Below, piece after piece: positions 30,470 to 47,054 of a DNA stretch of 54,820 nt. Made by a program: the position numbers and the translations under genes. Every line of letters begins with the position of its first letter. Positions within the stretch are counted from its first letter, which is position 1. The stretch covers positions 1-54,820 of the forward strand of contig JAKSJO010000017.1 of assembly GCA_024398125.1 (NCBI GenBank), read 5' to 3'. A model generated the notes under the pieces. That model was given only the letters and a program-made list of their open reading frames with translations, did no database searches and was not told where the DNA came from. The DNA comes from Bacteroidales bacterium. Its GTDB lineage: Bacteria; Bacteroidota; Bacteroidia; Bacteroidales; UBA932.

Positions 30470-30496
30470 TATATTCATCAAATATGAAACAGAAAG

Positions 30497-30520
30497 GCTC
30501 CCTATGGGGAGCTTTTTTTT
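30497..30520 (+). terminator. Intrinsic terminator
   Basis: GCTCCC (30497-30502) pairs with GGGAGC (30507-30512) and is followed by eight T. It ends the SGNH hydrolase gene. Confidence 0.85.
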
Positions 30521-30552
30521 GCCCTTGGAACAATCAGTAGTATTCTTGTTGT

Positions 30553-30560
30553 TATCTTTG
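30553..30560 (+). promoter_or_regulatory. Promoter -7 box of the DMT transporter gene
   Basis: TATCTTTG lies 13 nt before the ATG at 30574. Confidence 0.55.
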
Positions 30561-30573
30561 TGCGCGAGACATC

Positions 30574-31461
30574 ATGACAAATCAGGTAAAGGGATTCATA
30601 AATGGAATAGTGTCGGGCATATCGTTCGGCATGATTCCGCTGTTCTCGATTCCGGTGATTGCCGCCGGGATGGGGAATGTCAGCATCCTTGTATATCGGT
30701 TCCTCATGGGGTCGATGGTGATGCTGGCGATGCTTCTGGTTGGAAGGACGTCGCTCCGCATCAGCTGGGGTGATGTCTGGCGTATCGCAATCCTGTCATT
30801 CTTCTATAATGGCACCGCACTGGCGACCTTGGAGTGCTACCACTATCTGTCCTCGGGAGTGGCGACAGCATTGGTCTTTACTGACCCGATATGGTGTGCC
30901 CTGATAGGTCTGGCATTTCTTGGAGACAGGTTTTCATGGAAACTGAGCGCTTCAATCTTCATGGCGACCCTTGGTGTCATGATGCTTACAGGAGTATTCT
31001 CTGAGGACGGCAGCTTCAATGCGGTCGGTGTGTTCTGGGGACTGCTTTCCGGACTCAGCTATGCACTGTACCTTATCGTTCTGCCTCGTCTGAGACTCAG
31101 CAAGATGCCTAGCCTTAAGCTGACTTTCTATGTATTCTTCATTGCGATGCTGCAATTAGCCTTGTACGCGAGTCTGACGGGCGGCATCGAGGCTGTTGCG
31201 ACTCCTCAGTGCTGGCTGAACCTCTTCCTGCTCGGCCTTATTCCGACTGCAGTCAGCAACATCTGCGTCACCCGCTCACTGAAACTCATAGACAGTACGG
31301 TTGTCGCCATACTTGGCGCTTTCGAGCCGCTTACAGCCATGATTATAGGCGTCTGCTTCCTCGGAGATCCGTTTACAGTCCTGATCGCTCTTGGCGGTGT
31401 GCTGATTCTTGCTGCCGTCTATAACCTAACGGTCCCTACCCATGCCCGGAAGCGCGGATAG
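30574..31461 (+). CDS. DMT superfamily (EamA) transporter
   Basis: This 295-residue membrane protein has ten predicted helices arranged as two EamA repeats. The first ends near GVMMLTGVFSEDG and the second near the C-terminus, where the typical DSTVVAILGAFEPLTAMIIG block is seen. Such transporters export amino acids or other metabolites; the substrate cannot be inferred here. It converges on the carbonic anhydrase gene. Confidence 0.92.
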   Translation: MTNQVKGFINGIVSGISFGMIPLFSIPVIAAGMGNVSILVYRFLMGSMVMLAMLLVGRTSLRISWGDVWRIAILSFFYNGTALATLECYHYLSSGVATALVFTDPIWCALIGLAFLGDRFSWKLSASIFMATLGVMMLTGVFSEDGSFNAVGVFWGLLSGLSYALYLIVLPRLRLSKMPSLKLTFYVFFIAMLQLALYASLTGGIEAVATPQCWLNLFLLGLIPTAVSNICVTRSLKLIDSTVVAILGAFEPLTAMIIGVCFLGDPFTVLIALGGVLILAAVYNLTVPTHARKRG

Positions 31462-31487
31462 GGACAGCAACGATTTCTGCGGTTTAT

Positions 31488-32027
31488 TTAGATTGTAGAA
31501 AGCTCGCCGGTCACGGAGTCCATCATGTAGCCCTTGACGACGACATCCTTCGGAACCAGAGGGTGGTTGGAAATCAGGTCGACAGTTTCCATGATGGCGG
31601 CAGGCGTGTCATCGAAGCCATGGAGCCAGGACTTCAGGTCAATGCCGCAATGCATCATCAGATTGATATGCTCATCGTCGATTCCTCGTTCACGCATGAG
31701 GTGCAGCATCTCCTCGGAGTTCATTCCCTGGACGCCGCAGCCGGTATGACCTATGATCATGATCTCGTTCACGCCCAGTTCGTAGATTGCAACGAGAAGG
31801 CTGCGGACGGTACTGTCGAAAGGATTGGTAATGACAGCACCTGCATTCTTGATCATCTTGACATCTCCGTTCTTGATTCCCAGCGCAGCGGGAAGCAGGG
31901 TGACCAGTCTCGTGTCCATGCAGGTCACGATTGCGATCTTCTTGTCCGGATACTTGCTGGTCTGGTAGTTCTTGTATTCCTCGGATTCAACAAATTTCCT
32001 GTTGAATTCCAGCATCTGTTCAATCAT
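31488..32027 (-). CDS. Beta-class carbonic anhydrase
   Basis: This 179-residue enzyme interconverts CO2 and bicarbonate. Zinc ligands are visible: Cys and the neighbouring Asp-Arg pair in TCMDTRLVTLL, and His and Cys in IIGHTGCGVQG. The length and the FESEEYKNYQTSKYPDKK start (VESEEYKNYQT) fit the small cytoplasmic type II/plant-like subgroup of Firmicutes and Bacteroidota. Its ATG lies 2 bp after the stop of the GH5 gene, so the two are co-transcribed. Confidence 0.94.
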   Translation of the reverse strand: MIEQMLEFNRKFVESEEYKNYQTSKYPDKKIAIVTCMDTRLVTLLPAALGIKNGDVKMIKNAGAVITNPFDSTVRSLLVAIYELGVNEIMIIGHTGCGVQGMNSEEMLHLMRERGIDDEHINLMMHCGIDLKSWLHGFDDTPAAIMETVDLISNHPLVPKDVVVKGYMMDSVTGELSTI

Positions 32028-32029
32028 GT

Positions 32030-33229
32030 CTATTTGCTTTTCTTGTAAGGCTTCATCATCGCGTAGAACTTGTCGAGAAGTTCCTTCATCTCCTTGAGAT
32101 CACCGCTCTTGCGGAGCTGGTTAACCTGCCAGTTCGGAGCCTCGCGCATAGGGGCCAGCTGGCCTGCCTCGAGGGTGTTGGCGCTGAGTTCTGCAAGACG
32201 GATTCCTGCATCCCAGTCCTTTGCACCGTCCTTTTTCCACTGCTCAATACCGGCCATGGCGTTGGTTATCCTGCTTTCACGGTCCGGATCCTCAGGGACG
32301 ATGTCCTCACGGTTGCGGAAATATCCGAGAATAGCTGCAGGAATGGATGGATCGCGCACGGTTCCGTCCTCGTAGAATACACCGTGGATCATGCCCCAAC
32401 CCTTTCTGACGACCATGAGCTCCCAGATGCACCAGCCCATGTTGGCCTTCATGTGCTCTTCGAGGGTTACATCGTATGGGTTGGCACGTCCCACGCATCC
32501 CATCTCACCGTTGAAGATCTTCTTGCCGACCTGGTCAGCGAAGGCTTGCGCACGTGCAACGGTGTCGCGCACCTCAGCCCTGGTCTCTGAATAGTCATGG
32601 AACTGGAGGATATCCGCATAGTCGGCCATCTTGATCATGCTTGAGACGAGCTGGAAACCGATGGTAAGTGGGGTGTCCGGATCCTTCTCCTTGAAAAGAC
32701 CGTACATGCGTCTGCAGTTTTCGAAGTTGGCTTCGCGCATCCTGACATTGAGATCGGGCTCATTCATGATGTCCCACATCGCGAGGTTCGGCTCGTCCTT
32801 GAGAGTGGCAACGAGGAAGTCGACCCATTCTTCGGCCTGGTAGAGGAGGGTAGAGTCCCTGGTCCAGCGTCCACTGCCTACCACAGGCATCATAAGCATG
32901 TCTCTCTCGGCGCACTTGTGCGCGAAATCCTGTAGTCTTACGGCAAGGGTGTCGCCTATTTCGTCGTAGCACTGCCATGGAACAAAGACGCGGCAGAAGT
33001 TAAGCTTAAGGCCCTGAGCGAGGTCAAGATCGTATGCGACAACGTCTTCGTCATACTTCACCCAGGTGTCGATATGGTGACGCGGTTCAGCGACTCCGGC
33101 AGGGGTGTAGTTGAATCCTCTCATCTGGGTACAGTCGATAGCATACTTGTCAACCTTTTCTACTGGCTGGCTGCAAGATGCCATTGCCAAAGCCAGCAAC
33201 GACATTGCGACGGATTTCAGGTGCTTCAT
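32030..33229 (-). CDS. GH5-like cellulase/mannanase lipoprotein
   Basis: This 399-residue lipoprotein (lipobox MASCS) has a TIM-barrel of the GH5/clan A kind. It contains the acid/base Glu157 in WDIMNEPDLN and the nucleophile Glu242 in IFNGEMGCVG; the motif RGFNYTPAGVA opens the barrel and FCRVFVPWQCYDE follows. Closest character is the GH5-type group without assigned specificity that is common in Bacteroidota; mannan or glucan hydrolysis is likely. It is followed by carbonic anhydrase with a 2-bp gap and preceded by the HAD phosphatase gene 22 bp upstream, all on the - strand. Confidence 0.85.
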   Translation of the reverse strand: MKHLKSVAMSLLALAMASCSQPVEKVDKYAIDCTQMRGFNYTPAGVAEPRHHIDTWVKYDEDVVAYDLDLAQGLKLNFCRVFVPWQCYDEIGDTLAVRLQDFAHKCAERDMLMMPVVGSGRWTRDSTLLYQAEEWVDFLVATLKDEPNLAMWDIMNEPDLNVRMREANFENCRRMYGLFKEKDPDTPLTIGFQLVSSMIKMADYADILQFHDYSETRAEVRDTVARAQAFADQVGKKIFNGEMGCVGRANPYDVTLEEHMKANMGWCIWELMVVRKGWGMIHGVFYEDGTVRDPSIPAAILGYFRNREDIVPEDPDRESRITNAMAGIEQWKKDGAKDWDAGIRLAELSANTLEAGQLAPMREAPNWQVNQLRKSGDLKEMKELLDKFYAMMKPYKKSK

Positions 33230-33251
33230 GATAGTATGGGTTTTATTGGTT

Positions 33252-33863
33252 TCAGATCTGGTTGTCGAGAATCTCCCTCAGTTCCTTCTCGTACTGCTTT
33301 GCATTCTTGAAGACTATGCCTTTCATCCCAAGGCTTTCTCCGCCCTCGATGTTGTCTTCGCGGTCGTCGGTGAAAACGCATTCTTCCGGTTTCAGGCCGA
33401 ATCTGTCGAACAGGCACTGATATATCTCCGGTTCAGGCTTGATGACCTTTTCCTCCGATGATATGACCTGACCGTCCAGAAGCTTGAAGATATCGAACTG
33501 AGACATTGTTGTGTACACCTTGCTGCACCAGTTGGTAAGGCCGTAGAGCTTGTAGCCCTCGGTCTTCAGCTTCATAAGCAGCTCTCTCATGCCGGGGATC
33601 TCTTCTGTGACGACCTCGGTATAGTGCTCCTCGAAGATGTGGATTTCGTTCTCAAGATCCTTGTGCATGGCGATCATTTCCTCCATGATTGCGCTGAAAG
33701 GCTTCGCCTCGCGGTCGATGATCATCTGGAGGTCATAGTTGAAGATGGATATCAGTGCTTCGCGTTTTTTCTGCTCGGGGATGAATCTAAGGTAGAAGGC
33801 CTCGTAGTCATAGTCCACGAGAACCTTTCCAAAATCGAATATCAGGTTCTTTATCATTGTCAA
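33252..33863 (-). CDS. HAD family hydrolase (YihX-like phosphatase)
   Basis: This 203-residue HAD-superfamily phosphatase shows motif I in NLIFDFGKVLVDYD (the second Asp replaced by Gly-Lys as in YihX-type proteins), motif II in LYGLTNW, the motif III Lys in SSEEKVIKPEPEIY and motif IV in VFTDDREDNIEGG. YihX of E. coli is an alpha-glucose-1-phosphatase; the substrate here is not determined. It is first of a probable three-gene unit with GH5 and carbonic anhydrase. Confidence 0.9.
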   Translation of the reverse strand: MTMIKNLIFDFGKVLVDYDYEAFYLRFIPEQKKREALISIFNYDLQMIIDREAKPFSAIMEEMIAMHKDLENEIHIFEEHYTEVVTEEIPGMRELLMKLKTEGYKLYGLTNWCSKVYTTMSQFDIFKLLDGQVISSEEKVIKPEPEIYQCLFDRFGLKPEECVFTDDREDNIEGGESLGMKGIVFKNAKQYEKELREILDNQI

Positions 33864-33944
33864 GTCGTTCTTAAGTCATTCCTAAAAAGTATGTAAGGAT
33901 AGTTATTTTTGTCGATATCGGCAAAAATATGAGAACTATAGTCC

Positions 33945-33952
33945 TATATTTG
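33945..33952 (+). promoter_or_regulatory. Promoter -7 box of the TonB receptor gene
   Basis: TATATTTG, 17 nt before the ATG at 33970. An out-of-frame ATG (33966) opens an eight-codon reading frame that overlaps the start. Confidence 0.6.
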
Positions 33953-33969
33953 CGCAGCAAAAAACATGA

Positions 33970-36042
33970 ATGTTGAAAGTTATCAAGCATAGATGCATGG
34001 CTCTTGTGGCCGTCATGGTTGTTCTTTTCCAGAGCCTTCAGGCTCAGGAGAAGAATCCCTTTGCGCACAGGATGGATGATACACTCTCTACGGTGACTGT
34101 CACGGCTGTAAAGGAAAAACCGCGCAACACCACCCAGACGGGCCTTGTCCGTCTGGACACAGACATGCTGAAAAGGGGAGCCTCGAGCTTCGGTACGCCT
34201 GACATCATCAAGACCTTGCTGAACCTTCCCGGCGTTTCGGCCGGCAATGAGCTGATGGGCGGCATGTATGTCCATGGCGGCGACGGAACTGATAACCTGT
34301 ATCTGCTTGACGGAGTCCCTCTGTACAACATCAGCCATTTCGGCGGAATCTTCTCTTCATTCAACACTGATGTGACCGACGGTCTGGATTTTTACAAGAG
34401 CGGCTTTCCTGCGCGCTATGGAACCAAGCTGTCATCGGTCGTTGATGTAACAACCCGCCCGGGTGACATGAATGAATTCCATGGAAGCGCCTCTCTGGGC
34501 CTCATTGACGGCAGGTTGAACATCGAGGGACCGATCGTGAAGGGACGGACTTCGTTCAACCTTGCCTATAGAAGGAGCTGGATGGACATGATGATATGGC
34601 TTGCAATGAAGCTTGCCGGCGAGGACGGCAGCCGAAAGGCGGCTTATTTCATGCATGACCTGAATGCCGGCATCACACATGACTTCGGCAAGGACAACCG
34701 TTTCAGGGTGAATTTCTACAGAGGCTCTGATGATCTGGACCTTGGTCTGAAACCTGCGGATTCATCTGTGGATCTGACTGTAAAGTGGGGCAACCTCTGT
34801 ACAAGCGTCAGCTGGGACAAGAAACTGAGCCTGAAGACTCGATCTTCGCTTATGGGCTATTTCTCGCAGAGCCGCTCTGATACTGACTATGGCATTCTTC
34901 TGGGGGGATACGACATGTCCGACAGGATCAACTCATCCATAAGGGATGCCGGAGTGCGGTACAATCTTGACTGGTATCCGCACGAGTCGCATCATATCCG
35001 TACAGGAGTTGACGGTGCATTCAAGATGTACCGCTATGTCGGAATGGCTGAAGATCCTACTGATCCTGACTCGCCGTCGCCGACCGTGAACAGCAATGCA
35101 CCCGAGCTGTCTGTCTATATGGAGGACGAATTCTTCATCGTTCACGGCCTTACGCTGAACGCCGGCCTCAGACATACGGCATACATGACGCCTGGAAAGA
35201 TCTGGAACAGTTTTGAACCGAGAGCCGCACTGAAGATATCCCCAGCCTATTTCATGGATATCAAGCTTTCGTACAGCAGGATGAGCCAGAGCGACCACCT
35301 CGTTGCGTCGTCATACATTGACCTGCCCAGCAATACCTGGATGCCTTCTTCTTCGCTTGTGCGTCCCGAACTTTCGGATCAGGTCAGCGCAGGCGTCTAT
35401 ACGGAGCCAGTTGAGGGTATGACCCTCAATCTCGAAGGCTGGTACAAAACCATGAACCATCTGTTGCACTATGTGGGTATCAACTCCATGTTCCCGCCTG
35501 TACAGAACTGGGAGACCTCGTTCACTGATGGAAAGGGCCTCTCATACGGTTTGGAAGCCGAGATAGGCTACCAGACGAAGTCATTCAACGCAACGGCGTA
35601 CTATACCTTGGGATGGTCGAAGAGGTACTTTCCGGAGGTTTATCCGCAATGGTTCTGGGCTAACAATGACAACCGCCACAAGGTGAATCTGCTGTTCTCT
35701 TACAGGATATCCAAGAGCCTTGAGGTGAACGCCAACTGGAATTACCATACCGGCAACCGCATAACCCTTCCGACGAACGTTCTTGCCGACGGAACTCAGC
35801 TCTATGGCACTCCGTTCAATTTCACGTTGCCGTCATACCATCGACTTGACCTTGCAATGACCTACACCAGGAAGACAAGGATGGGCAATGCCTTCGACCT
35901 GAGTGCAAGCGTTTATAACGCATACAATAACAAGAATGCCTTCTTTGCCTATGTGGAGAAGGATGAAAATGGGGATTTCAAGGGAGTCGCGTACAGCGTC
36001 CTTCCTGTGTTCCCGACATTGACGATGACATATAGATTCTAG
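33970..36042 (+). CDS. TonB-dependent outer membrane receptor (DUF4249-associated)
   Basis: This 690-residue beta-barrel receptor has a signal peptide (cleavage after SLQAQ) and goes almost directly into the plug domain: LLNLPGVSAGNELMGGMYVH (with LPGV and the later GGDGTDNLYLLDGVPLYN) is the plug signature, followed by the barrel to the C-terminal TMTYRF with terminal aromatic residue. It lacks the N-terminal carboxypeptidase-regulatory-like domain found in many SusC proteins. Pairing with a DUF4249 lipoprotein, rather than SusD, is characteristic of a separate group of receptors of unknown ligand. It would import a TonB-driven substrate. Confidence 0.93.
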   Translation: MLKVIKHRCMALVAVMVVLFQSLQAQEKNPFAHRMDDTLSTVTVTAVKEKPRNTTQTGLVRLDTDMLKRGASSFGTPDIIKTLLNLPGVSAGNELMGGMYVHGGDGTDNLYLLDGVPLYNISHFGGIFSSFNTDVTDGLDFYKSGFPARYGTKLSSVVDVTTRPGDMNEFHGSASLGLIDGRLNIEGPIVKGRTSFNLAYRRSWMDMMIWLAMKLAGEDGSRKAAYFMHDLNAGITHDFGKDNRFRVNFYRGSDDLDLGLKPADSSVDLTVKWGNLCTSVSWDKKLSLKTRSSLMGYFSQSRSDTDYGILLGGYDMSDRINSSIRDAGVRYNLDWYPHESHHIRTGVDGAFKMYRYVGMAEDPTDPDSPSPTVNSNAPELSVYMEDEFFIVHGLTLNAGLRHTAYMTPGKIWNSFEPRAALKISPAYFMDIKLSYSRMSQSDHLVASSYIDLPSNTWMPSSSLVRPELSDQVSAGVYTEPVEGMTLNLEGWYKTMNHLLHYVGINSMFPPVQNWETSFTDGKGLSYGLEAEIGYQTKSFNATAYYTLGWSKRYFPEVYPQWFWANNDNRHKVNLLFSYRISKSLEVNANWNYHTGNRITLPTNVLADGTQLYGTPFNFTLPSYHRLDLAMTYTRKTRMGNAFDLSASVYNAYNNKNAFFAYVEKDENGDFKGVAYSVLPVFPTLTMTYRF

Positions 36043-36044
36043 CA

Positions 36045-37073
36045 GTGAAAAGATTTTTCTATATATTCCTGAGCCTTGTGGCTCTGTCAGGATGCAAGTT
36101 CGGCTTCGAGGTCGAGAATGACGCAGATCCAGGCGTCTATCTCAGCTGCATAGCATCTCCAGACAGCATCAGCTATTACCTGCGTTACGCATCTCCGCTC
36201 GGGGTCAACGCAGGCGACATTCCTGATGTCAAGGTTCTGGAATCCAGCATAAGCGTTTCGGGGCGGCCTCTGGGTCGGAATCCGCTGATTGTCGAAGATG
36301 ACATCAAGGTCTATCCGGTCGGCGGCATGCTTGGATCCGGTGATGAAGTCCGTATCCGCGTGCGTACGGAAGGCCTTGGCGAGCTTGATGCCCGTACTGC
36401 GATTCCTCAAAGAATATCGCTGGACAGCGTGGCTCTGGTTCGTACGGACATGATGGGCATCATCATGGATGATTTCACAATCAGACTTGATCGTCAGCCG
36501 GAAGAAGGGGAGTATGTGGGTCTGTTCATGTCCAGGACAGTATCGCCCGATGAAATGAACTGGGATTGGGGTTGGATGGAAGAACCTTTGGACAGTCTGG
36601 AAGTATCCGACATAAAGTATCTCTCGCCCGCTACGACCGTAGCCAACAATGCCGACGTGGAACTCTGCCAGGTCGATTTCTGCTGGCCGCGATACATTAG
36701 GACATGGTATATGGGATACGGTCAGGATCAGCCGTTCACAGTCATCCCGGCTGCTGCGTTCAGGAATAAGGAGGTCAGTCTCATGGTCACCAGTTTCTCC
36801 GCAATCTATGGAGGATATCCCGGGTCGGAAGAGGAAGCCGAGGCTGAACCTTTCGATCCAATGTACACCTTCACAGTCATGAGCGTGTCAGAAGAGTTCT
36901 ATCGTTACAGTCTGGCCGTTCATAGAAGCAGGACCGATTTCCTCGCCCTGATGGGACTCGCCCCGGCCCAGTTCGCCTGGAGCAACGTCGATGGCGGCTT
37001 CGGCCTCTGCGGCGCCATCAGCCACCCCTCAACGATCGAACTCCCGCTCTCCGAGCTTCTTGGTGAGGAATAG
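36045..37073 (+). CDS. DUF4249 lipoprotein, receptor partner
   Basis: This 342-residue lipoprotein (MKRFFYIFLSLVALSGC) matches DUF4249, the usual partner of TonB receptors lacking SusD. It starts with GTG two bases after the receptor stop (TAGCAGTG), the only plausible start because the lipobox follows directly. Segments such as LSCIASPDSISYYLRY and the beta-rich body are typical. It probably sits on the outer leaflet with the receptor and caps or binds the ligand, but the role is not known. Confidence 0.9.
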   Translation: MKRFFYIFLSLVALSGCKFGFEVENDADPGVYLSCIASPDSISYYLRYASPLGVNAGDIPDVKVLESSISVSGRPLGRNPLIVEDDIKVYPVGGMLGSGDEVRIRVRTEGLGELDARTAIPQRISLDSVALVRTDMMGIIMDDFTIRLDRQPEEGEYVGLFMSRTVSPDEMNWDWGWMEEPLDSLEVSDIKYLSPATTVANNADVELCQVDFCWPRYIRTWYMGYGQDQPFTVIPAAAFRNKEVSLMVTSFSAIYGGYPGSEEEAEAEPFDPMYTFTVMSVSEEFYRYSLAVHRSRTDFLALMGLAPAQFAWSNVDGGFGLCGAISHPSTIELPLSELLGEE

Positions 37074-37084
37074 CATTCTTTAAA

Positions 37085-37119
37085 GTTGCGTATATTTGCA
37101 AGGTTGCGTATATTTGCAA
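37085..37119 (+). promoter_or_regulatory. Tandem operator/promoter of the HTH-NTase gene
   Basis: A 17-bp unit GTTGCGTATATTTGCAA occurs twice (37085-37101 and 37103-37119), 18 bp apart. Each has a -7-like TATATTTG (37091-37098, 37109-37116) framed by a TTGC...GCAA inverted repeat, so a repressor bound to both would cover both boxes. The downstream HTH protein is the natural candidate repressor. Confidence 0.7.
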
Positions 37120-37138
37120 CAAATAATATGCTTGGGGT

Positions 37139-37645
37139 ATGAATACGGTAAGTTTATCATTGGGCTCGGCAATAAGAATTGCTAGAAAAGAGCGAGGGCT
37201 ATCGCAAGAGCAACTCGCATCTATGCTTGGCCTGAATAAAAGTCAGGTGTCGAGAGTGGAGAATGGCTTGTGCCGTTCCATGTCAACGATTGACTCCATA
37301 TTATCCGTCATGAAGCTGTCTCCTGTGATCGAACTGAAATCCATACGTGAGCCGCTTTCCATGGTTGATGTTCTATCTGTACTTCGCAAGTATAAAGCTG
37401 AGAACGCCGATAAATTAGGCATCTTACAGATGGGACTGTTTGGAAGCTATGCGAGGAATGAGCAGAACCTTGAAAGTGATGTTGATGTATGTGTGCAGCT
37501 TTCGCAACCTAGTTATATGACTCGCGCTGCCATCAAAGAAGGACTGGAAGCATTGCTTGGACGAGAAGTCGATGTCATCTCTTTGTCGGCCAGGATGGAT
37601 CAGGACTTCAGGTCAAACCTTTTGAATGATGTTGTATATGTATAA
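37139..37645 (+). CDS. HTH (XRE) - MNT-type nucleotidyltransferase fusion
   Basis: This 168-residue protein fuses an N-terminal Cro/C1 helix-turn-helix (RIARKERGLSQEQLASMLGL, then NKSQVSRVENG) with a minimal nucleotidyltransferase domain of the MntA kind. The NTase motif is complete: GLFGSYARNEQNLESDVDVCV has G-S, then the D-x-D pair, and EVDVISL supplies the third acidic residue. MntA proteins are antitoxins that AMPylate HEPN toxins; the HTH would make it self-regulating. The normal HEPN partner is missing: only a short remnant follows. Confidence 0.85.
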   Translation: MNTVSLSLGSAIRIARKERGLSQEQLASMLGLNKSQVSRVENGLCRSMSTIDSILSVMKLSPVIELKSIREPLSMVDVLSVLRKYKAENADKLGILQMGLFGSYARNEQNLESDVDVCVQLSQPSYMTRAAIKEGLEALLGREVDVISLSARMDQDFRSNLLNDVVYV

Positions 37646-37650
37646 GCAGC

Positions 37651-37769
37651 GTGTAAGCCTTCTTCTCAAGTCCTTCCCACTGTGGAAGCGATGTATGAAG
37701 ACATCCGGAAAGGAGGCCATGATCCTTTATTTGAAGACCTTGATGCAAAAAAGGCATCCCGGAAATAGT
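37651..37769 (+). pseudogene. Possible gene remnant downstream of HTH-NTase
   Basis: An open stretch without start codon reads ...VEAMYEDIRKGGHDPLFE... and ends at a TAG (37767-37769). It looks like the C-terminus of a protein. It does not belong to the NTase frame. It could be the end of the lost toxin or of another gene, and no family could be assigned. A second overlapping frame from ATG 37638 (51 codons) has no protein-like character. Confidence 0.3.
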
Positions 37770-38084
37770 CTAAGCAGGGAAGGACTCGTCTAGCTCAGAT
37801 ATATAGGCGGCACTCCATTTCCCTGCTAAATAAAGTTCATTTGCACGCTTTTCGGCCTCCTGCCATGAGGTTGTTGGAGCGCCCGACTCGCTCCACCAAA
37901 CCTTGTTCTTTATGAATTTCAGCATGGTTTTGGAGATTTTGTCTGCAACCTTTTCATCATGCGCCTCGGCGGCATATTTCTCCAATCGCCACCATATATC
38001 AATTGTTTCAAAAGGACACTCAGACTCGCCTTTATAGTATCGGAATAGACTCCAATAGTAAGTCTCTTTTTCTTGTTCAGTCAT
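37770..38084 (-). CDS. Small acidic protein, YKGE family (unknown)
   Basis: This 104-residue protein is not recognised by name. It has a YYKGESECPFE motif near residue 18 and a Trp-rich, amphipathic helical body (KFIKNKVWW, WQEAEKRANELYLAGKW). The adjacent upstream ORF has the related motif YKGEDINPFD, so the two are paralogues in tandem. Its ATG overlaps by ATGA the end of the disrupted upstream frame. Tandem small acidic paralogues of this type are often immunity or regulatory proteins, but nothing here proves that. Confidence 0.6.
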   Translation of the reverse strand: MTEQEKETYYWSLFRYYKGESECPFETIDIWWRLEKYAAEAHDEKVADKISKTMLKFIKNKVWWSESGAPTTSWQEAEKRANELYLAGKWSAAYISELDESFPA

Positions 38085-38191
38085 AATCGATCCTTGTCAT
38101 TGATGTATTCGTTATATACCTTCGTGAAGTCTTTGTAATTGTTTCCTTCTTTTGCATTCTTTTCGGTTGTCAAAAAAGCTTTTTCCACTTC
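38081..38191 (-). pseudogene. In-frame tail cut off from the upstream ORF by TAA
   Basis: After the stop TAA (38192-38194) of the next gene the same frame continues for 36 codons as EVEKAFLTTEKNAKEG... and ends at TGA (38081-38083), which overlaps the ATG of the gene at 37770-38084 as ATGA. The tail is protein-like and its end fits translational coupling, so the original protein was probably about 132 residues. Confidence 0.55.
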
Positions 38192-38479
38192 TTATAATGC
38201 AAGATACATGGCCACATAATCGTAGCGTGGATCATCCATCTTCTTGAGCTTTATGAATATGACGAATTTGTAGAGCTCCTCGGCTTGTTCTTCAATGCTT
38301 AGACGGATTCCCTCATTATGCTCTTCCCATATAGATATCCAAAAATCGTAGTTCTCGCATACAGAGTACTCTGCGTCCCATATTTGGAACTTGAAATAGT
38401 CCGTATCATTGTCGAATGGATTTATATCCTCTCCTTTGTATAGCTTGCAGTTGGTCAACAGGGCTTTTTTTATTGTCAT
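38192..38479 (-). CDS. Small acidic protein, YKGE family, probably truncated
   Basis: This 95-residue protein starts MTIKKALLTNCKLYKGEDIN and shares the YKGE-x(3)-PF motif with the downstream neighbour. It is rich in Asp, Glu and aromatic residues and has no signal or membrane segment. The frame continues after a single TAA with a protein-like tail (38081-38191), so this gene may be a truncation by nonsense mutation. The leader contains a -7 box (38559-38566, TACATTTG on the - strand) inside an AATGT-N4-ACATT inverted repeat, possibly an operator. Confidence 0.55.
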   Translation of the reverse strand: MTIKKALLTNCKLYKGEDINPFDNDTDYFKFQIWDAEYSVCENYDFWISIWEEHNEGIRLSIEEQAEELYKFVIFIKLKKMDDPRYDYVAMYLAL

Positions 38480-38631
38480 GATCAATCCTCCAAGAAATCA
38501 TCAATCGTGCTTCATTCACTTCCGTACTCATTTCGCCAGAAAAACGTGTCAAAGAATACAAATGTACAAACATTTGAGAGCTATTCACAGCAACGTTGTT
38601 CTCAATATAGTTCTAATTTCAGGTGGGTTGA

Positions 38632-38662
38632 TTTGTTTCGTGTAAAATAATCAATATCTTTA
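38632..38662 (+). promoter_or_regulatory. Promoter of the RNA candidate
   Basis: TTTG (38632-38635), a 19-nt spacer and TATCTTTA (38655-38662) match the Bacteroidota -33 and -7 elements at the usual spacing. No reading frame starts downstream before the terminator. Confidence 0.6.
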
Positions 38663-38667
38663 CAATT

Positions 38668-38742
38668 CGGTTCGTGAAAGCGAATGCAGTTAGGCGTGAG
38701 CCTTGATGTCGGGTAGAGCTATGCTTTACCCGTTCTTTTTTT
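38668..38742 (+). ncRNA. Predicted ~70-nt structured RNA
   Basis: Between the promoter and a strong terminator there is no open frame of more than a few codons. Three hairpins can be drawn: TTCG/CGAA (38671-38684), AGGC-GTGA-GCCT (38692-38703, GNRA-type loop) and a 10-bp terminator stem (38710-38719 with 38723-38732, one G-U pair) followed by TTCTTTTTTT. It sits 150 bp upstream of dinD on the same strand in a defence-type island. I do not recognise a known RNA family. Confidence 0.55.
38710..38742 (+). terminator. Strong intrinsic terminator
   Basis: A 10-bp stem CGGGTAGAGC / GCTTTACCCG with a TAT loop and a T-tract on the + strand only. No + strand gene precedes it closely, which is the main support for the RNA candidate. 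Confidence 0.8.
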
Positions 38743-38798
38743 ATAGATTCAATCTTTTTTCGTATATTTAACAAACGGATTTCGTATGTAATTCGTGA

Positions 38799-38829
38799 CA
38801 TTGCAGCAATGCAATCAGCTAGTCTGATT
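38799..38829 (+). repeat. Two adjacent hairpins upstream of dinD
   Basis: CATTGC-A-GCAATG (38799-38811) is directly followed by AATCAG-N5-CTGATT (38813-38829). They lie in the leader region of dinD, 60 bp before its ATG, and are not followed by a T-tract, so they are more likely protein-binding or leader structures than a terminator. Confidence 0.5.
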
Positions 38830-38890
38830 AAGCATGTGGGAAGCGATGGGACTGAGATTTGGAAATGAATAATTAGAAATAGCTGAGATT

Positions 38891-39715
38891 ATGAAGTCAG
38901 AAGAAATCAAGAATCTTTTTGATAAGTTTGAATCCATTGCATGCGAATATGATGGAGTGGAATGCTGGAGCGCACGTGAATTATGTGGTCTGCTTGGGTA
39001 TGCCAAGTGGCAGACGTTTGAAAATGTTTTAGCAAAGGCACAAGAGGCTTGCCAAAACGCAGGTATTCAATTATCTGATCATTTTACCGGCGTCAGTAAA
39101 ACGATACCTATGCCGAAGGGAGCAAGTAAGGAAGTTGGCGACTACATGCTCACCCGCTATGCTTGTTACCTTGTAGCTCAGAATGGTGATCCTCGCAAGC
39201 CGGAAATATCCTTCGCCCAAAACTATTTTGCAGTACAGACACGTATTGCAGAGATGGTGGAGCGCAGAGTGCTGGAATATGAGCGCGTAAAAGCTCGTCA
39301 TAAACTGGCGGAGACAGAAAAGCAGTTGTCGGGAGTACTCTACGAGCGTGGTGTTGATGATAATGGCTTTGCAATCATCCGAAGCAAAGGCGATCAGGCA
39401 CTTTTCCACATGAACACTGCAATGCTGAAGCGCAGATTAGGAGCACCGGCTAACCGTGCAGTTGCTGACTTCCTTCCTACTATCAGCATCAAGGCAAAGG
39501 ACTTCGCTGCCGAGATGACGAGTGTAAACGTTCAGCAAAAGGACCTTTATGGAATGCCATCCATTGAGAAAGAACACATAGACAATAACAAAGCCGTACG
39601 CGATATGCTTCTCAGCCGTGGAATTGCTCCTGAGCAGCTTCCTGCAGGTGAGGATGTCAAGAAGGTTGAACGTAGGTTGGTGTCAGATGAGAAAAAGATG
39701 CTGCCGAAAAAATAA
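38891..39715 (+). CDS. dinD: DNA damage-inducible protein D (DinD)
   Basis: This 274-residue protein matches DinD along its length: the BRO-like N-terminus (CEYDGVECWSARELCGLLGY), AKWQTFENVLAKAQEACQNA, the HFTGVSKTIPMPKGASKEV block and MLTRYACYLVAQNGDPRKPE are all diagnostic. In E. coli DinD is SOS-induced and inhibits RecA filaments. In many genomes homologues sit beside restriction-modification genes, as here: the RM gene starts 50 bp downstream on the same strand. I see no LexA-type site. Confidence 0.93.
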   Translation: MKSEEIKNLFDKFESIACEYDGVECWSARELCGLLGYAKWQTFENVLAKAQEACQNAGIQLSDHFTGVSKTIPMPKGASKEVGDYMLTRYACYLVAQNGDPRKPEISFAQNYFAVQTRIAEMVERRVLEYERVKARHKLAETEKQLSGVLYERGVDDNGFAIIRSKGDQALFHMNTAMLKRRLGAPANRAVADFLPTISIKAKDFAAEMTSVNVQQKDLYGMPSIEKEHIDNNKAVRDMLLSRGIAPEQLPAGEDVKKVERRLVSDEKKMLPKK

Positions 39716-39765
39716 CGTTAGGCGCATAGGTTGATTATACTTCTTTCGCATAATACCAAGGTACT

Positions 39766-42700
39766 ATGACCGCAAAAGATATATTTAAACAGTACGCAAA
39801 GTCAATTGATGAACAATTCCAAACAGGAATTACCACTGAGCATTCATATCGACCTGCTTTGCAGAAACTCCTCAGTGAGCTGTTGGTTGACTGCATTGTC
39901 ATAAACGAGCCTGCACGTATCCAGTGTGGTGCTCCCGACTACATCATTACACAGAAACGTACCGGGCAACCTGTATTCTTTGTTGAGGCAAAAGATGTAT
40001 TTGATCCAGACCTTGACGGTATGCGTGCTCACAAGGAACAGTTCGATCGATATAAAGCATCACTGGATTACATTATCTTCACCGACTATCTCGATTTCCA
40101 TGTCTATGAACATGGAGAGTGGATACAGAATGTTCGACTAGTTGAGCAACAAGGCACTCACTTACGCTTCGTGGAAAATGCAGGAGAGAATTTTATTGCC
40201 TTGATAGAGCACCTTGCAGCTTCACGCCCTCAAAGCATTACTTCTCCTGCAAGACTTGCAAAGCTGATGGCGGCAAAGGCGCGATTGCTGGCAAATGTGG
40301 TTGGCAGAGCTCTTAAAGATGAGGAAATAGATGACAATCCTTATGGTAACAGTCAGCTCCTGTCACAGCTCAAAGCCTTTCGTAATATCCTGATTCACGA
40401 CCTTACGTCAGAAGGCTTTGCCGACATATATGCTCAGACGATAGCCTACGGTATGTTTGCAGCTCGATTGCATGATGAAACACCAGAGGATTTTTCTCGT
40501 CATGAAGCAGCAACGCTCATTCCCAAGACTAATCCTTTCCTTCGCACCATCTTCCAACAGATAGCGGGCTATGATCTTGACGATCGTATTGCTTGGATTG
40601 TAGATGATCTTGCTCAGACATTTGTTGTTACCGACCTCGGCAAAGTTATGAAGACATACATCGGCAACGCCCTTCACAGCGACCCGATGATCCACTTCTA
40701 CGAGGATTTCCTCTCGGAATACAATCCAGATCTTCGCAAGTCGAAGGGAGTATGGTACACTCCACAGCCGGTGGTCAGTTTCATTGTGCGTGCTGTTGAT
40801 GAAATCTTGCAACGCGACTTCCACCTTCCTATGGGTCTTGCCGACAGCAGCAAGATGAAGCATGAGGTGGTAAATGATTATTATGATGGCACTCGCAAGT
40901 CAAAGAAAACCATTACTTGCGAAAGCCATCGTGTACAGATACTCGACCCGGCCACGGGTACGGGAACCTTCCTTGCCGAGGTTGTACGTCAGATTTATCA
41001 GAAGTTCCAGGGAATGGAGGGCATGTGGCCAGGGTATGTAGAGGACCATCTTTTACCTCGTTTGCATGGTTTTGAATTGCTGATGGCAAGCTATGCTGTA
41101 GCGCATCTCAAGCTTGATCTCCAACTACGTGGCATGGGATATGACTCAGCAAAAGCACGAGGTCAGCGTATGCGTATCTACTTGACCAACTCGCTGGAAG
41201 AATGCCATCCAGACACCGGTACGCTATGGGCTAACTGGCTCAGTACCGAGGCTACTGAGGCCAACTATATCAAGCGTGACTGTCCCGTAATGGTAATGGT
41301 TGGAAATCCACCTTATTCCATTTCGTCAAGCAACAAGGGTGAATGGATAAATACACTCGTGGATGACTACAAAATAAATCTTAACGAGCGCAACATACAG
41401 CCTCTTAGCGATGACTATATCAAGTTCATACGTCTTGGTCAGAACTACGTAGAACGCAATGGGCAGGGCATCCTTGGTTACATTAGCAACAACTCATTCG
41501 TAGATGGTGTCATCCATCGTGAAATGCGCCATCAGTTGCTCCTTGCATTTGACGATATTTATATCTTGAATCTTCATGGTAATACGCGCAAGAAGGAACA
41601 AGCGCCCGATGGCAGCAAAGATGAAAATGTCTTCGACATTATGCAGGGTGTCAGTATCAACATCTTTGTTCGTAAGCTAGATCATAAGCAAGGCGAACTC
41701 GGACGAGTATTTTATAAAGACCTTTATGGCTCACGAGATAGTAAATATGAATACTTGTACGCACACTCACTGGTAAAGGATGTTGATTGGAAAGAAGTTG
41801 TCTACTCTTCACCTGAGTATTGCTTCGTTCAAAAGAGCTTAGAGATTCAAAAAGAATACAAGCAAAACATTAGTCTTGCAGATCTAATGCCTGTTCATAA
41901 AACAGGAGTGGCAACAGGAAAGGATTCGATTCTTATTTGTGACAATACGAAAGAATTGTTATTGAAAGTTCGAGAGTATTTCCAAATGGATGCTGATAAT
42001 GATAAAATTGAGCCCTACGCATATAGACCTTTTGACCATAGGTTTATCTATTATGATGCTGCACTTGTTCAACGAGCAAGAGTTGATATTATGAAACACA
42101 TGATGAAGGAAAACACTGGCATCATGGTTTCTCCAAATAATAGACAAATTAGTACGGGGTATTATTTTATAATAGAAGGAATTATAGATCGTCATTATCT
42201 TGACAGCATCCTTGACAGTGAAAGTTTGCATCCCCTATACCTTTACAAAACCACAAATGACGGTATAGAAGAGAAGACGCCTAACCTAAACCGGGAAGAG
42301 TGGGCTAAGTTCGATGCTGCTGTGGGCCGAACGACTACTCCCGAGGAATTGCTCAACTACATCTATGGAGTGTTGCATTCACCAGCCTACCGCGAGCGTT
42401 ATAAGGAATTCCTGAAGATTGATTTTCCTCGTATTCCTCTGCCAGAGAATGAAGATGATTTTATGCATAGGGGAGAAATAGGCCGCCAACTCATAGACCT
42501 CCACCTGATGCGCGACACCCACACATGGCAGCTTACTACCACTTTCCCCGAATCCGGAGACTGCATGGTGGACGCCATAAAATACAGGGATGGTCGCGTC
42601 ATGATTAACGCGACTCAGTATTTCGGAAATGTGCCCGCAGAGGCTTGGAACGCCTATATTGGAGGCTATCAACCTGCCCAGAAGTGGCTGAAGGACCGTA

Positions 42701-42795
42701 AAGGCCGTGTTCTCTCCTTCGATGACATAAACCATTATCGTCATATTATCCACGCACTTACTGAAACCGTAAAACTGATGAATGAGTGTGATTGA
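39766..42795 (+). CDS. Single-chain restriction-modification enzyme (type IIG/ISP-like)
   Basis: This 1009-residue protein combines nuclease, adenine methyltransferase and specificity domain. The PD-(D/E)XK nuclease is at the N-terminus (Asp58 in GAPDYI, Glu74 and Lys76 in FFVEAKD). The N6-adenine methyltransferase has motif I at Asp394 (LDPATGTGTFLAEV) and motif IV NPPY at 514-517. The C-terminal ~300 residues look like the type ISP specificity domain (LNREEWAKFD, YIYGVLHSPAYRERYKEFLK). The ISP helicase is absent, so cleavage must be close to the site as in type IIG enzymes. No separate hsdS or methylase gene is needed. The AT-rich codon use contrasts with the neighbours, suggesting transfer. 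Confidence 0.9.
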   Translation: MTAKDIFKQYAKSIDEQFQTGITTEHSYRPALQKLLSELLVDCIVINEPARIQCGAPDYIITQKRTGQPVFFVEAKDVFDPDLDGMRAHKEQFDRYKASLDYIIFTDYLDFHVYEHGEWIQNVRLVEQQGTHLRFVENAGENFIALIEHLAASRPQSITSPARLAKLMAAKARLLANVVGRALKDEEIDDNPYGNSQLLSQLKAFRNILIHDLTSEGFADIYAQTIAYGMFAARLHDETPEDFSRHEAATLIPKTNPFLRTIFQQIAGYDLDDRIAWIVDDLAQTFVVTDLGKVMKTYIGNALHSDPMIHFYEDFLSEYNPDLRKSKGVWYTPQPVVSFIVRAVDEILQRDFHLPMGLADSSKMKHEVVNDYYDGTRKSKKTITCESHRVQILDPATGTGTFLAEVVRQIYQKFQGMEGMWPGYVEDHLLPRLHGFELLMASYAVAHLKLDLQLRGMGYDSAKARGQRMRIYLTNSLEECHPDTGTLWANWLSTEATEANYIKRDCPVMVMVGNPPYSISSSNKGEWINTLVDDYKINLNERNIQPLSDDYIKFIRLGQNYVERNGQGILGYISNNSFVDGVIHREMRHQLLLAFDDIYILNLHGNTRKKEQAPDGSKDENVFDIMQGVSINIFVRKLDHKQGELGRVFYKDLYGSRDSKYEYLYAHSLVKDVDWKEVVYSSPEYCFVQKSLEIQKEYKQNISLADLMPVHKTGVATGKDSILICDNTKELLLKVREYFQMDADNDKIEPYAYRPFDHRFIYYDAALVQRARVDIMKHMMKENTGIMVSPNNRQISTGYYFIIEGIIDRHYLDSILDSESLHPLYLYKTTNDGIEEKTPNLNREEWAKFDAAVGRTTTPEELLNYIYGVLHSPAYRERYKEFLKIDFPRIPLPENEDDFMHRGEIGRQLIDLHLMRDTHTWQLTTTFPESGDCMVDAIKYRDGRVMINATQYFGNVPAEAWNAYIGGYQPAQKWLKDRKGRVLSFDDINHYRHIIHALTETVKLMNECD

Positions 42796-42861
42796 GACGT
42801 GTTGAATAAAAGCGCACGATGCAGATTATATTGATTAAGTAAAAGCAGAGATCTTGTCTCA

Positions 42862-43890
42862 ATGAAGAGAATTAGTCCATTTGAGGCAGTGCTTGGACTG
42901 CTGCTTGCGTTCGTGCTGTGGTGCAGGGCTGATAGGGGAATGGCTGATTTCTATGCCACAAGATTGTACCCTGTCATTTCCTGCGTGATGTCGCGCATGT
43001 CCTCGCTTGTGCCTTTCTCTTTGGAGGAATTCCTTGTGGCTGCAATGGTCTTCGTGATCATCCTGATCGTGGTGGCAGGCGTACGGCGGCAGGAACGATG
43101 GCATAATGTCCTCTGGCGTGAGGTGAAGTGGCTGGTTCTCATATATGTATGGTTCTATATAGGTTGGGGGCTGAACTATTCCCGTTCGTCTCTCTCCCAG
43201 AGACTGGAGACACCGGTTGCGCGTTATGATGCCGACTCTTTCAAGGCTTTTCTGTCCGACTATGCCTGGAAGATCAATTCTTCATTCGATTATAAGGATG
43301 ATGAGCCAGCTGATGTTGAGGAGGACATAAGAACCTTCTATTCGGCGCTGCCGTCCAGTGCAGGATTGTGCAGGCCGCACAGCTGGCAGGCTCCAAAGAC
43401 TGCGCTGGCGTCAGGACTGTTCTCGAAGGTTGGCGTTTCAGGCAGCATGGGCCCCTTCCTGTCGGAGTCATTGCTTAATGGATATATGCCTGAGGTGGAT
43501 TATCCTTTCACGGCGGCTCACGAGTTTGCGCATCTCATGGGCGTGAGCAATGAGGCTGAAGCCAATTTCTGGGCTTTCAGGTTCAGCGAGTCTTCTCCGC
43601 ATCAGGCTGTACGGTACAGCGGCTATCTTTCGCTTCTTGGAAATATTATGAGAAATGCCCATAATCTTCTCCCAGAAGAAGACTACAGGCAGTTCATCGG
43701 CTCGATCAGGAGCGAGGTGATCCAGGAGTACAATGATAACCTCGCCTATTGGTCCGGAAAGTATTCTAGAAGGCTCGGAAAGATCCAAAACACCTTGTAC
43801 AACGCATACCTGAAAGGAAACGGAATCAAATCAGGAACTAAGAACTACGACGAAGTCGTCTCTCTCTTGATGACGGATTTTCCTTTATAG
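42862..43890 (+). CDS. DUF3810 membrane zinc metallopeptidase-like protein
   Basis: This 342-residue protein matches DUF3810. Residues 1-110 hold three hydrophobic segments; WFYIGWGLNYSRSSLSQR is the family hallmark after them. The HExxH motif is intact (His220, Glu221, His224 in AAHEFAHLMG) with SNEAEANFWAF following, so a periplasmic zinc peptidase is likely although no member has a known substrate. It marks the right edge of the accessory island. Confidence 0.9.
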   Translation: MKRISPFEAVLGLLLAFVLWCRADRGMADFYATRLYPVISCVMSRMSSLVPFSLEEFLVAAMVFVIILIVVAGVRRQERWHNVLWREVKWLVLIYVWFYIGWGLNYSRSSLSQRLETPVARYDADSFKAFLSDYAWKINSSFDYKDDEPADVEEDIRTFYSALPSSAGLCRPHSWQAPKTALASGLFSKVGVSGSMGPFLSESLLNGYMPEVDYPFTAAHEFAHLMGVSNEAEANFWAFRFSESSPHQAVRYSGYLSLLGNIMRNAHNLLPEEDYRQFIGSIRSEVIQEYNDNLAYWSGKYSRRLGKIQNTLYNAYLKGNGIKSGTKNYDEVVSLLMTDFPL

Positions 43891-43904
43891 TTCGAGGATA
43901 TAAT

Positions 43905-43943
43905 AAAGGATCAAGGCGCCTGACCCCTTGATCCTTTTTTGGT
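43905..43943. terminator. Intrinsic terminator
   Basis: A perfect 12-bp stem (43905-43916 with 43926-43937; AAAGGATCAAGG) with TTTTTT on the + strand ends DUF3810; the convergent GH51 gene ends at its other side. The stem repeats the core ATCAAGG of the hairpin at 47025-47053. Confidence 0.85.
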
Positions 43944-46900
43944 TTACTTGCAAGGTGTAAGATGCAGGATTCCGACGGAGTTCTCAGGCATCTTGAAGGT
44001 GAATGACTTCGAGGCGGTGCCGAGGTCCATGGTGTGCGGAACGACTGCCTCGAGGTAGTTCACAGGGCGGACGAACCTGAAGCCACCAGGAATTCCTGGA
44101 CGGGTGTCGCCTCCAGGTGCGCCAGGGCCGCCCATTCCAGGACGTCGAGCTGGCATTTCATAATCCGGATGGCTTGAGTAGTAGTTCTGATCCTTCTGGT
44201 TCTTGATCTCTGTGTTGTGTGTAGAGATGAACTCGACCTCGACCTTGTATGCAATCTTGCTGCCTGTGTTGATGGTCACCATCTTGTCGACTGCCTCTGA
44301 GTTCACGAACTTCACATAGATATCACCGGTAGCGGTGTCGATGGTGGAAGATGTGTAGACTGTGGTGTCTGCGACAGCGCCATTCATCACCTGGCTCATC
44401 TCGAATGCGCGGTTGCCTGCCTTCGAGAACAGTTTCTGGTAGTAATAGTTGCTGGTGCGCCAGAGACCGCGGTTGTCGAACCAGATCATGTTCGAGTTCC
44501 ACTTGTTGTAGCCCTTCTTGCAGAAGAGAGGAGCGTAAGCGGCCATTGAGACCATGTCGGAGTTTCTCTCGAGACTGAGCCAGTATGCGGCTTCTGCCAT
44601 TGTTGAGACGTACGCGTTGTTTGTGCGGTTGTTGGCGAACTCTCCGACGAAGACGCGGGTTGGCTTCGACCTGTCGTAGGTGTTGCCCTCTGCGCCGCGG
44701 ACCTTGCCTGGAGCATAGCGGTCGCCGTTCTTGTAGAACCAGTCATCGCCCATGTAGTAGTGTTCGTCGACGATGGTGTCGGGATACTTGGCATCGATCT
44801 CGGCATAGTTCGCATCGAACTCGCGGCCCTGCGCCGATGCACCGGCGGTAGAAACGATGGTGATTTCAGGATACTTTGCCTTGATGGCGTTGTACATGAT
44901 GTCGAAACGCTCCCAGAACTCAGGCCCCCTGTTTTCGTTGCCGATACCGAGGTACTTGAGGTTGAATGGAGCAGGATGGCCCATCTCGGCACGCTTAGAG
45001 CCCCATTCGGTATTCACGCCACCGTTGCAGAACTCGATGAAGTCGAGTGCGTCCTTGACGAATACGTTGTAGAAGTTCTGGCGGTCGCTTTCAGTCTCGA
45101 GCGGAGCGATGTATGAATGGCCTGCGAACTGGCAGGTAACGCCGTTGTTAAGCACAGGAAGAGGTGTCGCGCCGAGAGACTCGGACATGAGCAGATACTC
45201 ATAGAAACCAACGTACTGCGAGGTCCAGTAGCCCCAGTGGTTGCGGAAGCCGATTCGCTCCTCGACAGGGCCGATGCTGTTCTTCCAGAATACCTGGCCG
45301 AAGTAGGTTGAACCTTCAGAGGCACAGCCGCCAGGGAAGCGCATGAATGTAGGATGGAGGTCGGCAAGAGCCTGCATCAGGTCCTTGCGGAAAGGACCGG
45401 CTTTGCCATCAAGCCAGAGTTCCGATGCCTCGGGAACGAGAGTCACGAAATCAAGGTAGAATGTACCCTTCGAGTCTGCGACTATCGCAAGACGGCTGTC
45501 CTGGCTGCGGAGAGCCTTGAGGGTCCCTGTATGCTTTCTCCAGCTGTTGCTGAGAGAAGAGATGGTGATGATGTTGGAATTGATCTCGCCGGCCTTGTTC
45601 TCGAGGTATACCGTTACATTGCCCTTGTAGCTCTCGCCCAGGAGATACAGCCCAAGGTCGTAGCTTACGCCTTCCTTGACCGCGATTGACGGAATCTGGC
45701 TGTTGTTCGAGTAGAATGCGTTTCTGTCGCGTGCAACGTAAGGAGAGATTCCGTAGCCGTTCGCTGCGATTCCGTAGCCTTCACCGGCATCTTCGATATC
45801 GAATCGGACGCTGTACTGCCTGTACCTGAGTTCATCATCATACTTGTCATCAGGGTAGTAGCTGTAGTGCCTCTTCATGTCAGGTCGGAGCGGCTTGTAG
45901 TCAACCGCGTGAGCCTGTCCCTTCGCACCGCCCTTGGCAACGACTGTCCATCCGAAGAAGACTGTATCTGACTGCGAGAACTCGCGTGGATCCGGGGCCT
46001 CGGGCACGTTGTAGGCCTGGAAGGAGTTGTTCTGGATCAACTGGGCGCAGAGACCTCCGTCGAGTGAGTTGTTGATGTCTTCGAAGAAGATACCCGAAAG
46101 GGTAGGGCTGATGTTGATGCCGAGCTTTGAAGGATTGAGGCTGATGGTTCTGCTCTCAGGCTTTGTGAAACCCTGGAGCTGGAGCATCTTCTCTGCGTAG
46201 CGGTAACCGAGAAGGCGCATGCCCTCTGTGCTGAAATGGAATGTGTCTCCTGTGCTCTCGCATCCGAGTGCGGAAATTACATATGAATTAGGGAGTACCT
46301 CCGGGAGGTGTGGAAGGATGTCGCGGTTGAATCTCCAGCAGATACCGTCATTCTCCTCGTACTTGAGCTCGCCCGCGAGAAGAGGAATCTTCTTAGGGTT
46401 GAGGCCAAGATCCTTGCAGAGGTCGTCATGGATCTTCTTGACCTTTGCCGGCCACTCCGGGTCATCGGAATTCGACTCGCCCTGATGGAGGAGCATACCC
46501 TTGATGACGCCTGACTTCTGGGCGATCTTTGCCATCTCGAGAAGGCGCTGATATGGGCTGCCTCCGTACATCTCGACGATGTCCTTCATCCAGTCGCGTT
46601 CACTGTCGATGTACTCCTTGTAGCCATCCTTGTCCCAGAGCTCTATCTTGGCTCCGGCAACGGAAACGTTGATGACACCGATCCTGTAATCCTCGGGCAT
46701 GACCTCGATCATCTTGCGGCCGAAGAAGTCCACCGGTCCCATGTTGTTGCTTGGACGGCAGATAGGAGGGACGGCGGTGTACCAGTTGCCCATCTTTCTG
46801 TCCATCTTTGGCATGTCGACTGCCGCGATGAACTGGAATCTTGGATCATTGAAATCCTTGTCCTGCTCGGCAGGAACGGCTCCGGCCTCCATGTTCGACT

Positions 46901-47006
46901 GGCCGAAGCAGAGGTAGATGTGAAATTTCGGGTCTGGTTTCTGGGCGCCAGCCGACAGCGAAACGCCGAGAATCAGAGCCACGAAAGCTGAAAGAATCTT
47001 TCTCAT
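43944..47006 (-). CDS. Esterase (SASA-type SGNH) - GH51 arabinofuranosidase fusion
   Basis: This 1020-residue exported protein (MRKILSAFVALILGVSLSAG) has two enzymes. Residues ~25-285 are a sialate-O-acetylesterase/CE6-type SGNH domain (FGQSNMEAG with the nucleophile Ser; LLHQGESNSDD; DTFHFSTEGMRL with the His). Residues ~300-1020 are a GH51 alpha-L-arabinofuranosidase: GIFFEDINNSLDGGL is the family signature, Glu691 in GIGNENRG is the acid/base and Glu789 in FVGEFANN the nucleophile. A Gly/Pro/Arg-rich insert lies near residue 950 (RRPGMGGPGAPGGDTRPG). It should deacetylate and de-arabinosylate arabinoxylan side chains. The start at 47006 gives a normal signal peptide; it follows the GH54 gene through a hairpin. 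Confidence 0.93.
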   Translation of the reverse strand: MRKILSAFVALILGVSLSAGAQKPDPKFHIYLCFGQSNMEAGAVPAEQDKDFNDPRFQFIAAVDMPKMDRKMGNWYTAVPPICRPSNNMGPVDFFGRKMIEVMPEDYRIGVINVSVAGAKIELWDKDGYKEYIDSERDWMKDIVEMYGGSPYQRLLEMAKIAQKSGVIKGMLLHQGESNSDDPEWPAKVKKIHDDLCKDLGLNPKKIPLLAGELKYEENDGICWRFNRDILPHLPEVLPNSYVISALGCESTGDTFHFSTEGMRLLGYRYAEKMLQLQGFTKPESRTISLNPSKLGINISPTLSGIFFEDINNSLDGGLCAQLIQNNSFQAYNVPEAPDPREFSQSDTVFFGWTVVAKGGAKGQAHAVDYKPLRPDMKRHYSYYPDDKYDDELRYRQYSVRFDIEDAGEGYGIAANGYGISPYVARDRNAFYSNNSQIPSIAVKEGVSYDLGLYLLGESYKGNVTVYLENKAGEINSNIITISSLSNSWRKHTGTLKALRSQDSRLAIVADSKGTFYLDFVTLVPEASELWLDGKAGPFRKDLMQALADLHPTFMRFPGGCASEGSTYFGQVFWKNSIGPVEERIGFRNHWGYWTSQYVGFYEYLLMSESLGATPLPVLNNGVTCQFAGHSYIAPLETESDRQNFYNVFVKDALDFIEFCNGGVNTEWGSKRAEMGHPAPFNLKYLGIGNENRGPEFWERFDIMYNAIKAKYPEITIVSTAGASAQGREFDANYAEIDAKYPDTIVDEHYYMGDDWFYKNGDRYAPGKVRGAEGNTYDRSKPTRVFVGEFANNRTNNAYVSTMAEAAYWLSLERNSDMVSMAAYAPLFCKKGYNKWNSNMIWFDNRGLWRTSNYYYQKLFSKAGNRAFEMSQVMNGAVADTTVYTSSTIDTATGDIYVKFVNSEAVDKMVTINTGSKIAYKVEVEFISTHNTEIKNQKDQNYYSSHPDYEMPARRPGMGGPGAPGGDTRPGIPGGFRFVRPVNYLEAVVPHTMDLGTASKSFTFKMPENSVGILHLTPCK

Positions 47007-47024
47007 GGTATGATTGTCATAAAA

Positions 47025-47053: not shown

Positions 47054-47054
47054 A

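Follow-up and report, generated by a model that had tools for sequence, protein, structure and literature searches.

The window analysed here is a stretch of 54,820 nt from a Bacteroidales genome whose 49 contigs total 2.34 Mb. Within it, a compact plus-strand unit lies ahead of dinD. The unit opens with the promoter-like site TTTG-N19-TATCTTTA at 38632-38662, in which TTTG occupies 38632-38635, the spacer measures 19 nt and TATCTTTA occupies 38655-38662; these letters are as a preliminary description of the stretch had given them. A predicted RNA of about 72 nt follows at 38667-38738, its ends placed by the spacing from the -7-like box and by the T-tract. In the predicted fold it contains hairpin 1 (38670-38685; six pairs, GAAA loop), hairpin 2 (38686-38709; three and four pairs flanking a 3x3 internal loop, GTGA loop) and an intrinsic terminator (38710-38742) with a 10-bp stem, a TAT loop and a T-tract. 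A second promoter-like site on the same strand, TTTA-N19-TATATTTA at 38740-38770, begins inside the T-tract and is a weak match to the consensus. Further along the plus strand lie dinD (38891-39715, 274 aa; NCBIfam NF008573 at 328 bits, cutoff 242) and a gene for a type ISP/IIG restriction-modification (RM) enzyme of 1009 aa (39766-42795; Pfam PF18135, PADLOC REase_MTase_IIG). Both are full open frames with family matches.

The divergent neighbour is a 97-aa ORF on the minus strand (38192-38485), apparently intact. It has a -7-like box, TACATTTG, at 38559-38566 on the minus strand, without a -33 box. Relatives with 44–46% identity were found in five viral contigs (L121-L125), four of them aligning with residues 13-97 and the fifth with residues 13-83, and others with 34–35% identity in 2 of 199 other genomes of the genus; the RNA was absent from all of these loci by covariance model. 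The L121 version has 106 aa and follows an ORF which we take to resemble an ADP-ribosylglycohydrolase. A 104-aa ORF also has an open frame, with no relative in 189 other genomes of the genus or in the viral contigs. The earlier suggestion that the RNA sits beside two decaying small genes is unsupported, as the 97-aa ORF aligns with its relatives and the frame of the 104-aa ORF is open.

Within the 1 kb upstream of the RNA, no gene on the plus strand that has a family match comes to an end. The nearest such end, at 37645, is separated from the RNA by two minus-strand ORFs. The GC content at 38000-38999 is 0.37–0.38, whereas the remaining 500-base windows across 33000-46000 range from 0.39 to 0.56. 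The gene at 37139-37645 encodes a helix-turn-helix domain fused to an MntA-like nucleotidyltransferase (47.6 bits against the NCBIfam MntA cutoff of 60; PADLOC PDC-S09). As the 55-aa plus-strand ORF that follows it is without a Pfam match, the MntA-like protein has no evident HEPN partner. Directly preceding this gene are two head-to-tail 18-nt repeats (37082-37117), 94% identical and each with TATATTTG; they may represent an operator or a promoter box present twice.

The candidate had been described as free of reading frames. This is not strictly true, since two short frames overlap it: a 10-codon ATG frame at 38684-38716, and a 60-aa minus-strand ORF at 38619-38801 that covers the entire stretch. 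For the 60-aa ORF the best Pfam hit stays below cutoff (E 0.013, 15.7 bits where 25.8 are required) and PHROGs gave none, and neither frame is therefore likely to be coding. A plus-strand ORF at 38409-38645 ends ahead of the RNA.

Promoter-like site, fold and terminator

The genome contains 132 instances of the pattern TTTG-N18-21-TANNTTTR, compared with 35 of the reversed control, an excess indicating that the Bacteroidetes promoter is in use in this genome. The excess is carried by the G-ended form (114 against 12 by subtraction), whereas the TTTA-ended form, as present here, is found 18 times against 23 for the reversed control and is thus at chance level. By hand count, a spacing of 19 is the commonest (31 of the first 51 matches listed for the full pattern, with either final letter), but it is seen in only 5 of the 18 A-ended matches. 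The RNA had been credited with its own promoter. The TTTG box and the spacing of 19 are indeed present, but the promoter is not established, because its A-ended box is the form without excess. A TTTA-ended box should not count as promoter evidence in this genome. By the same standard the site TTTA-N19-TATATTTA, from which dinD would be started separately, is weak.

The promoter-like site sits 47 nt ahead of a plus-strand terminator. A stricter script scan of the window returned two promoter-pattern matches and nine terminators, and the only close pair among them is the one at this site. Elsewhere in the genome, 2 of the 29 other promoter matches examined (30 loci fetched) were followed by a terminator within 150 nt, and 240 kb of sampled genome held seven promoters, 37 terminators and no promoter-terminator pair. 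The pairing seen here is suggestive, though not proof. Besides the present one, two units of promoter, short RNA and terminator were noticed in the same genome (L162, G000:C1:186119-186149, minus strand; L181, G000:C5:64255-64285, plus strand). They have TTTG-ended promoters and terminator stems of 12 or 14 bp, 67 or 57 nt downstream, and no Rfam match at gathering scores.

The fold is more stable than expected from dinucleotide shuffles, with z values of -3.49 for 38661-38745 and -3.98 for 38667-38738. When the terminator is removed (38667-38709), z is only -2.08 and 21 of 500 shuffles fold equally well. The 10-bp stem with a T-tract on the same strand, as previously described, is borne out by the fold: it spans 38710-38732, has G-C in 6 of its 10 pairs and is followed by TTCTTTTTTT. 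The sequence evidence for the terminator is strong, and it forms the solid part of the unit. Among the plus-strand terminator sites listed in 30000-48000, a longer stem is found only at 47025-47053, a perfect 13-bp palindrome that is T-rich on either side and is probably a two-way terminator. Three hairpins had been claimed, one of them with a GNRA loop; the number of hairpins was right, but both of the non-terminator hairpins have GNRA loops.

The sequence GTTAGGCG, which we take to resemble an integron attC core, is found at 38689-38696 and 39717-39724, on both sides of the dinD coding sequence. We dropped it as an attC-like signal and regard it as probably due to chance: the window has three copies where 0.79 would be expected, a number reached in 4 of 100 shuffles, and five RM loci have none.

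Relatives of the RNA and its association with dinD and the RM gene

The absence of a known family, as first reported, holds against Rfam, with no match at gathering score in the window. The sole sub-threshold match at the site is to sbrA (RF01489). Like the candidate, sbrA combines a hairpin with a terminator, but the score of 14.6 bits (E 2.5) is far under the gathering score of 45, and we consider it a chance match.

A covariance-model search of related genomes, as suggested in the preliminary description, gave no relative in the sampled genomes of the genus and the order. The model (R1) was built from one sequence and is blind to strongly diverged relatives. It was run over 300 genomes of the genus, 295 of the order and 131 loci (from sets of 21, 83, 13 and 14 sources), where the window's own locus was one of the 21 sources, and R1 itself had supplied 9 of the last 14. 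With the window excluded, matches at E up to 0.1 were obtained in 4 of the 300 and 9 of the 295 genomes. These 13 weak matches were rejected as homologues; in most of their alignments the match lies chiefly in the terminator stem and T-tract. The neighbourhoods of five of them contain unrelated genes, and the match in L135 lies inside an ORF.

DNA searches found no relative in 199 other genomes of the genus or in plasmids. In phages there was none at E 1e-5, only short pieces in seven records (E 0.2–9). In a sample of the family, pieces of 20–46 bases were matched in 14 of 198 other genomes (E 0.003–0.01), none of them spanning hairpins 1 and 2, and the exact two-hairpin pattern did not occur in the viral contigs. 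Not finding the RNA in the genus sample is a poor guide to its presence within the species, since the flanking DUF3810 protein has a best match of just 46% identity among 36 other genomes of the genus.

The association with dinD was examined in 83 relatives with 68–95% protein identity, of which 80 came from species genomes (the best 80 of 368) and three from viral contigs. Upstream sequence amounted to at least 230 nt in 80 of the loci, more than 400 nt in 79 and more than 1000 nt in 76, so that three or four loci could not, or only partly, have shown an upstream RNA. The covariance model found the RNA upstream of dinD in none of the 83. Its single match among them, in L088, lies downstream of dinD (14.5 bits, E 2.2). 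DNA similarity between these loci and the window starts no earlier than 38854, and the same is true of the closest ones, L028 (95%) and L029 (91%), each with 5 kb of upstream sequence. Another 20 dinD loci of the genus, with lower identity (33–68%), likewise lack the RNA by covariance model.

A relative of the RM gene was present in none of the 83 dinD loci, where at least 1 kb of downstream sequence was available in 76 and at least 3.1 kb in 65; the closest locus, L028, has only 106 nt. Conversely, five relatives of the RM gene, drawn from 249 other genomes of the genus, have no dinD within about 1.5 kb of upstream sequence, and no RNA by covariance model. In the loci examined, dinD is not accompanied by the type ISP/IIG RM gene, nor the RM gene by dinD. 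Their adjacency in the window thus looks accidental, with the RNA travelling with neither. Judged by this distribution, the candidate RNA is not a component of a dinD or RM system.

Interpretation and comparison with known systems

The best explanation of the stretch, in which we place roughly even confidence, is a lineage-specific candidate gene for an intergenic small RNA of about 72 nt. Transcription would begin near 38667 at an imperfect Bacteroidetes-type promoter, the transcript is predicted to fold into two GNRA-loop hairpins, and the strong intrinsic terminator at 38710-38742 would end it. Transcription of dinD would be separate, via the weak site at 38740-38770, and the unit would leave dinD insulated from upstream reading. 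The RNA, if made, would most likely act in trans, through short base-pairing or by binding a protein. Predicted pairing with six nearby mRNA starts and with the dinD-RM junction is within chance (best z -1.68, equalled by 16 of 200 shuffles).

The main rival, less probable but deserving serious consideration, is that only the terminator is functional. It would halt stray plus-strand transcription coming from upstream, and the promoter-like letters and the two small hairpins would be there by chance. The chance-level frequency of the TTTA-ended promoter and the z of -2.1 for the hairpins alone are consistent with this. Stems of this form are common in the order, and most of the 13 weak model matches rest mainly on such a stem; in L024 and L026 the stem comes after the end of a gene. 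Terminators are also found ahead of dinD in other loci: the 400 nt before dinD hold one on the plus strand in 10 of 79 loci, compared with 23 of 600 random 400-mers from the same loci, whereas a promoter match is found in 4 of the 79 and a promoter-terminator pair in none. The one in L035 is placed behind the 3' end of the gene upstream, and the L039 sequence is nearly identical. At the site itself, however, the preceding 1 kb contains no end of a plus-strand gene that has a family match, and the promoter-like site is on the right strand and at the commonest spacing.

An improbable alternative is a dinD leader or attenuator, transcribed from 38632-38662 and ending at a regulated terminator, perhaps by way of the 10-codon frame at 38684-38716. 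Its T-tract would lie about 148 nt before dinD on the same strand, and the stop codon of the 10-codon frame falls within the terminator stem. But no convincing antiterminator partner was found among upstream or downstream segments, the best candidates having seven pairs without G-C or six pairs with two, which makes attenuation or a regulated leader unlikely. Moreover, the pair probability of the terminator stays at 0.92–1.0 even with an extended 5' end, dinD is separated from the terminator by a promoter-like site, and the unit is absent from the dinD relatives compared.

We consider it equally improbable that the stretch is what remains of the 3' end of a plus-strand gene, now lost or decayed, that was acquired as part of the gene mosaic around it. 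The AT-richness of 38000-38999 and the position between pieces that do not travel together would fit such an origin, but no remnant was identified and the plus-strand ORF at 38409-38645 stops before the RNA. Somewhat less probable still is a very young, compact RNA, made up of the two GNRA hairpins and the terminator, which would have come in alongside the mobile genes next to it and would have its own function in the acquired island, for example binding a neighbour's protein. Least probable is the system-specific RNA of a dinD-restriction defence unit initially proposed, for which position alone speaks, against its absence from all dinD and RM loci compared, the lack of an RM gene in the 83 dinD loci and the onset of DNA similarity at 38854 or later.

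A free-standing short RNA is plausible, given the strong terminator, the promoter-like site at a sensible distance, the missing antiterminator and the second site for dinD. To this extent the original proposal stands, while the system-specific role is contradicted as far as it is testable.

In its AGC-nnn-GCT stem top and T-tract, the candidate resembles the Bacteroidales terminators of L024 and L026, but unlike these, which both come after genes, it is not directly preceded by a plus-strand gene that has a family match. In Bacteroides thetaiotaomicron, 49 high-confidence intergenic sRNAs marked by a start site and a terminator have been reported, and a canonical promoter was given for 76% of the intergenic sRNA candidates (PMC7366714). 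One RNA described there, GibS, measures 145 nt, is single-stranded over an extended 5' region and shows conservation within Bacteroides (PMC7366714), whereas the present candidate has about 72 nt, is almost wholly paired, has an imperfect promoter box and has no relatives found. With the intergenic sRNAs of that account it shares its intergenic position and an intrinsic terminator, and its promoter-like site is a TTTA-ended variant, at spacing 19, of the Bacteroidetes-type promoter found there. As 27 of those 49 sRNAs are strain-specific (PMC7366714), the candidate would be an ordinary one among them. If transcribed, it would be one more strain-specific sRNA, from an uncultured gut member of the Bacteroidales, useful for annotation and unsurprising.
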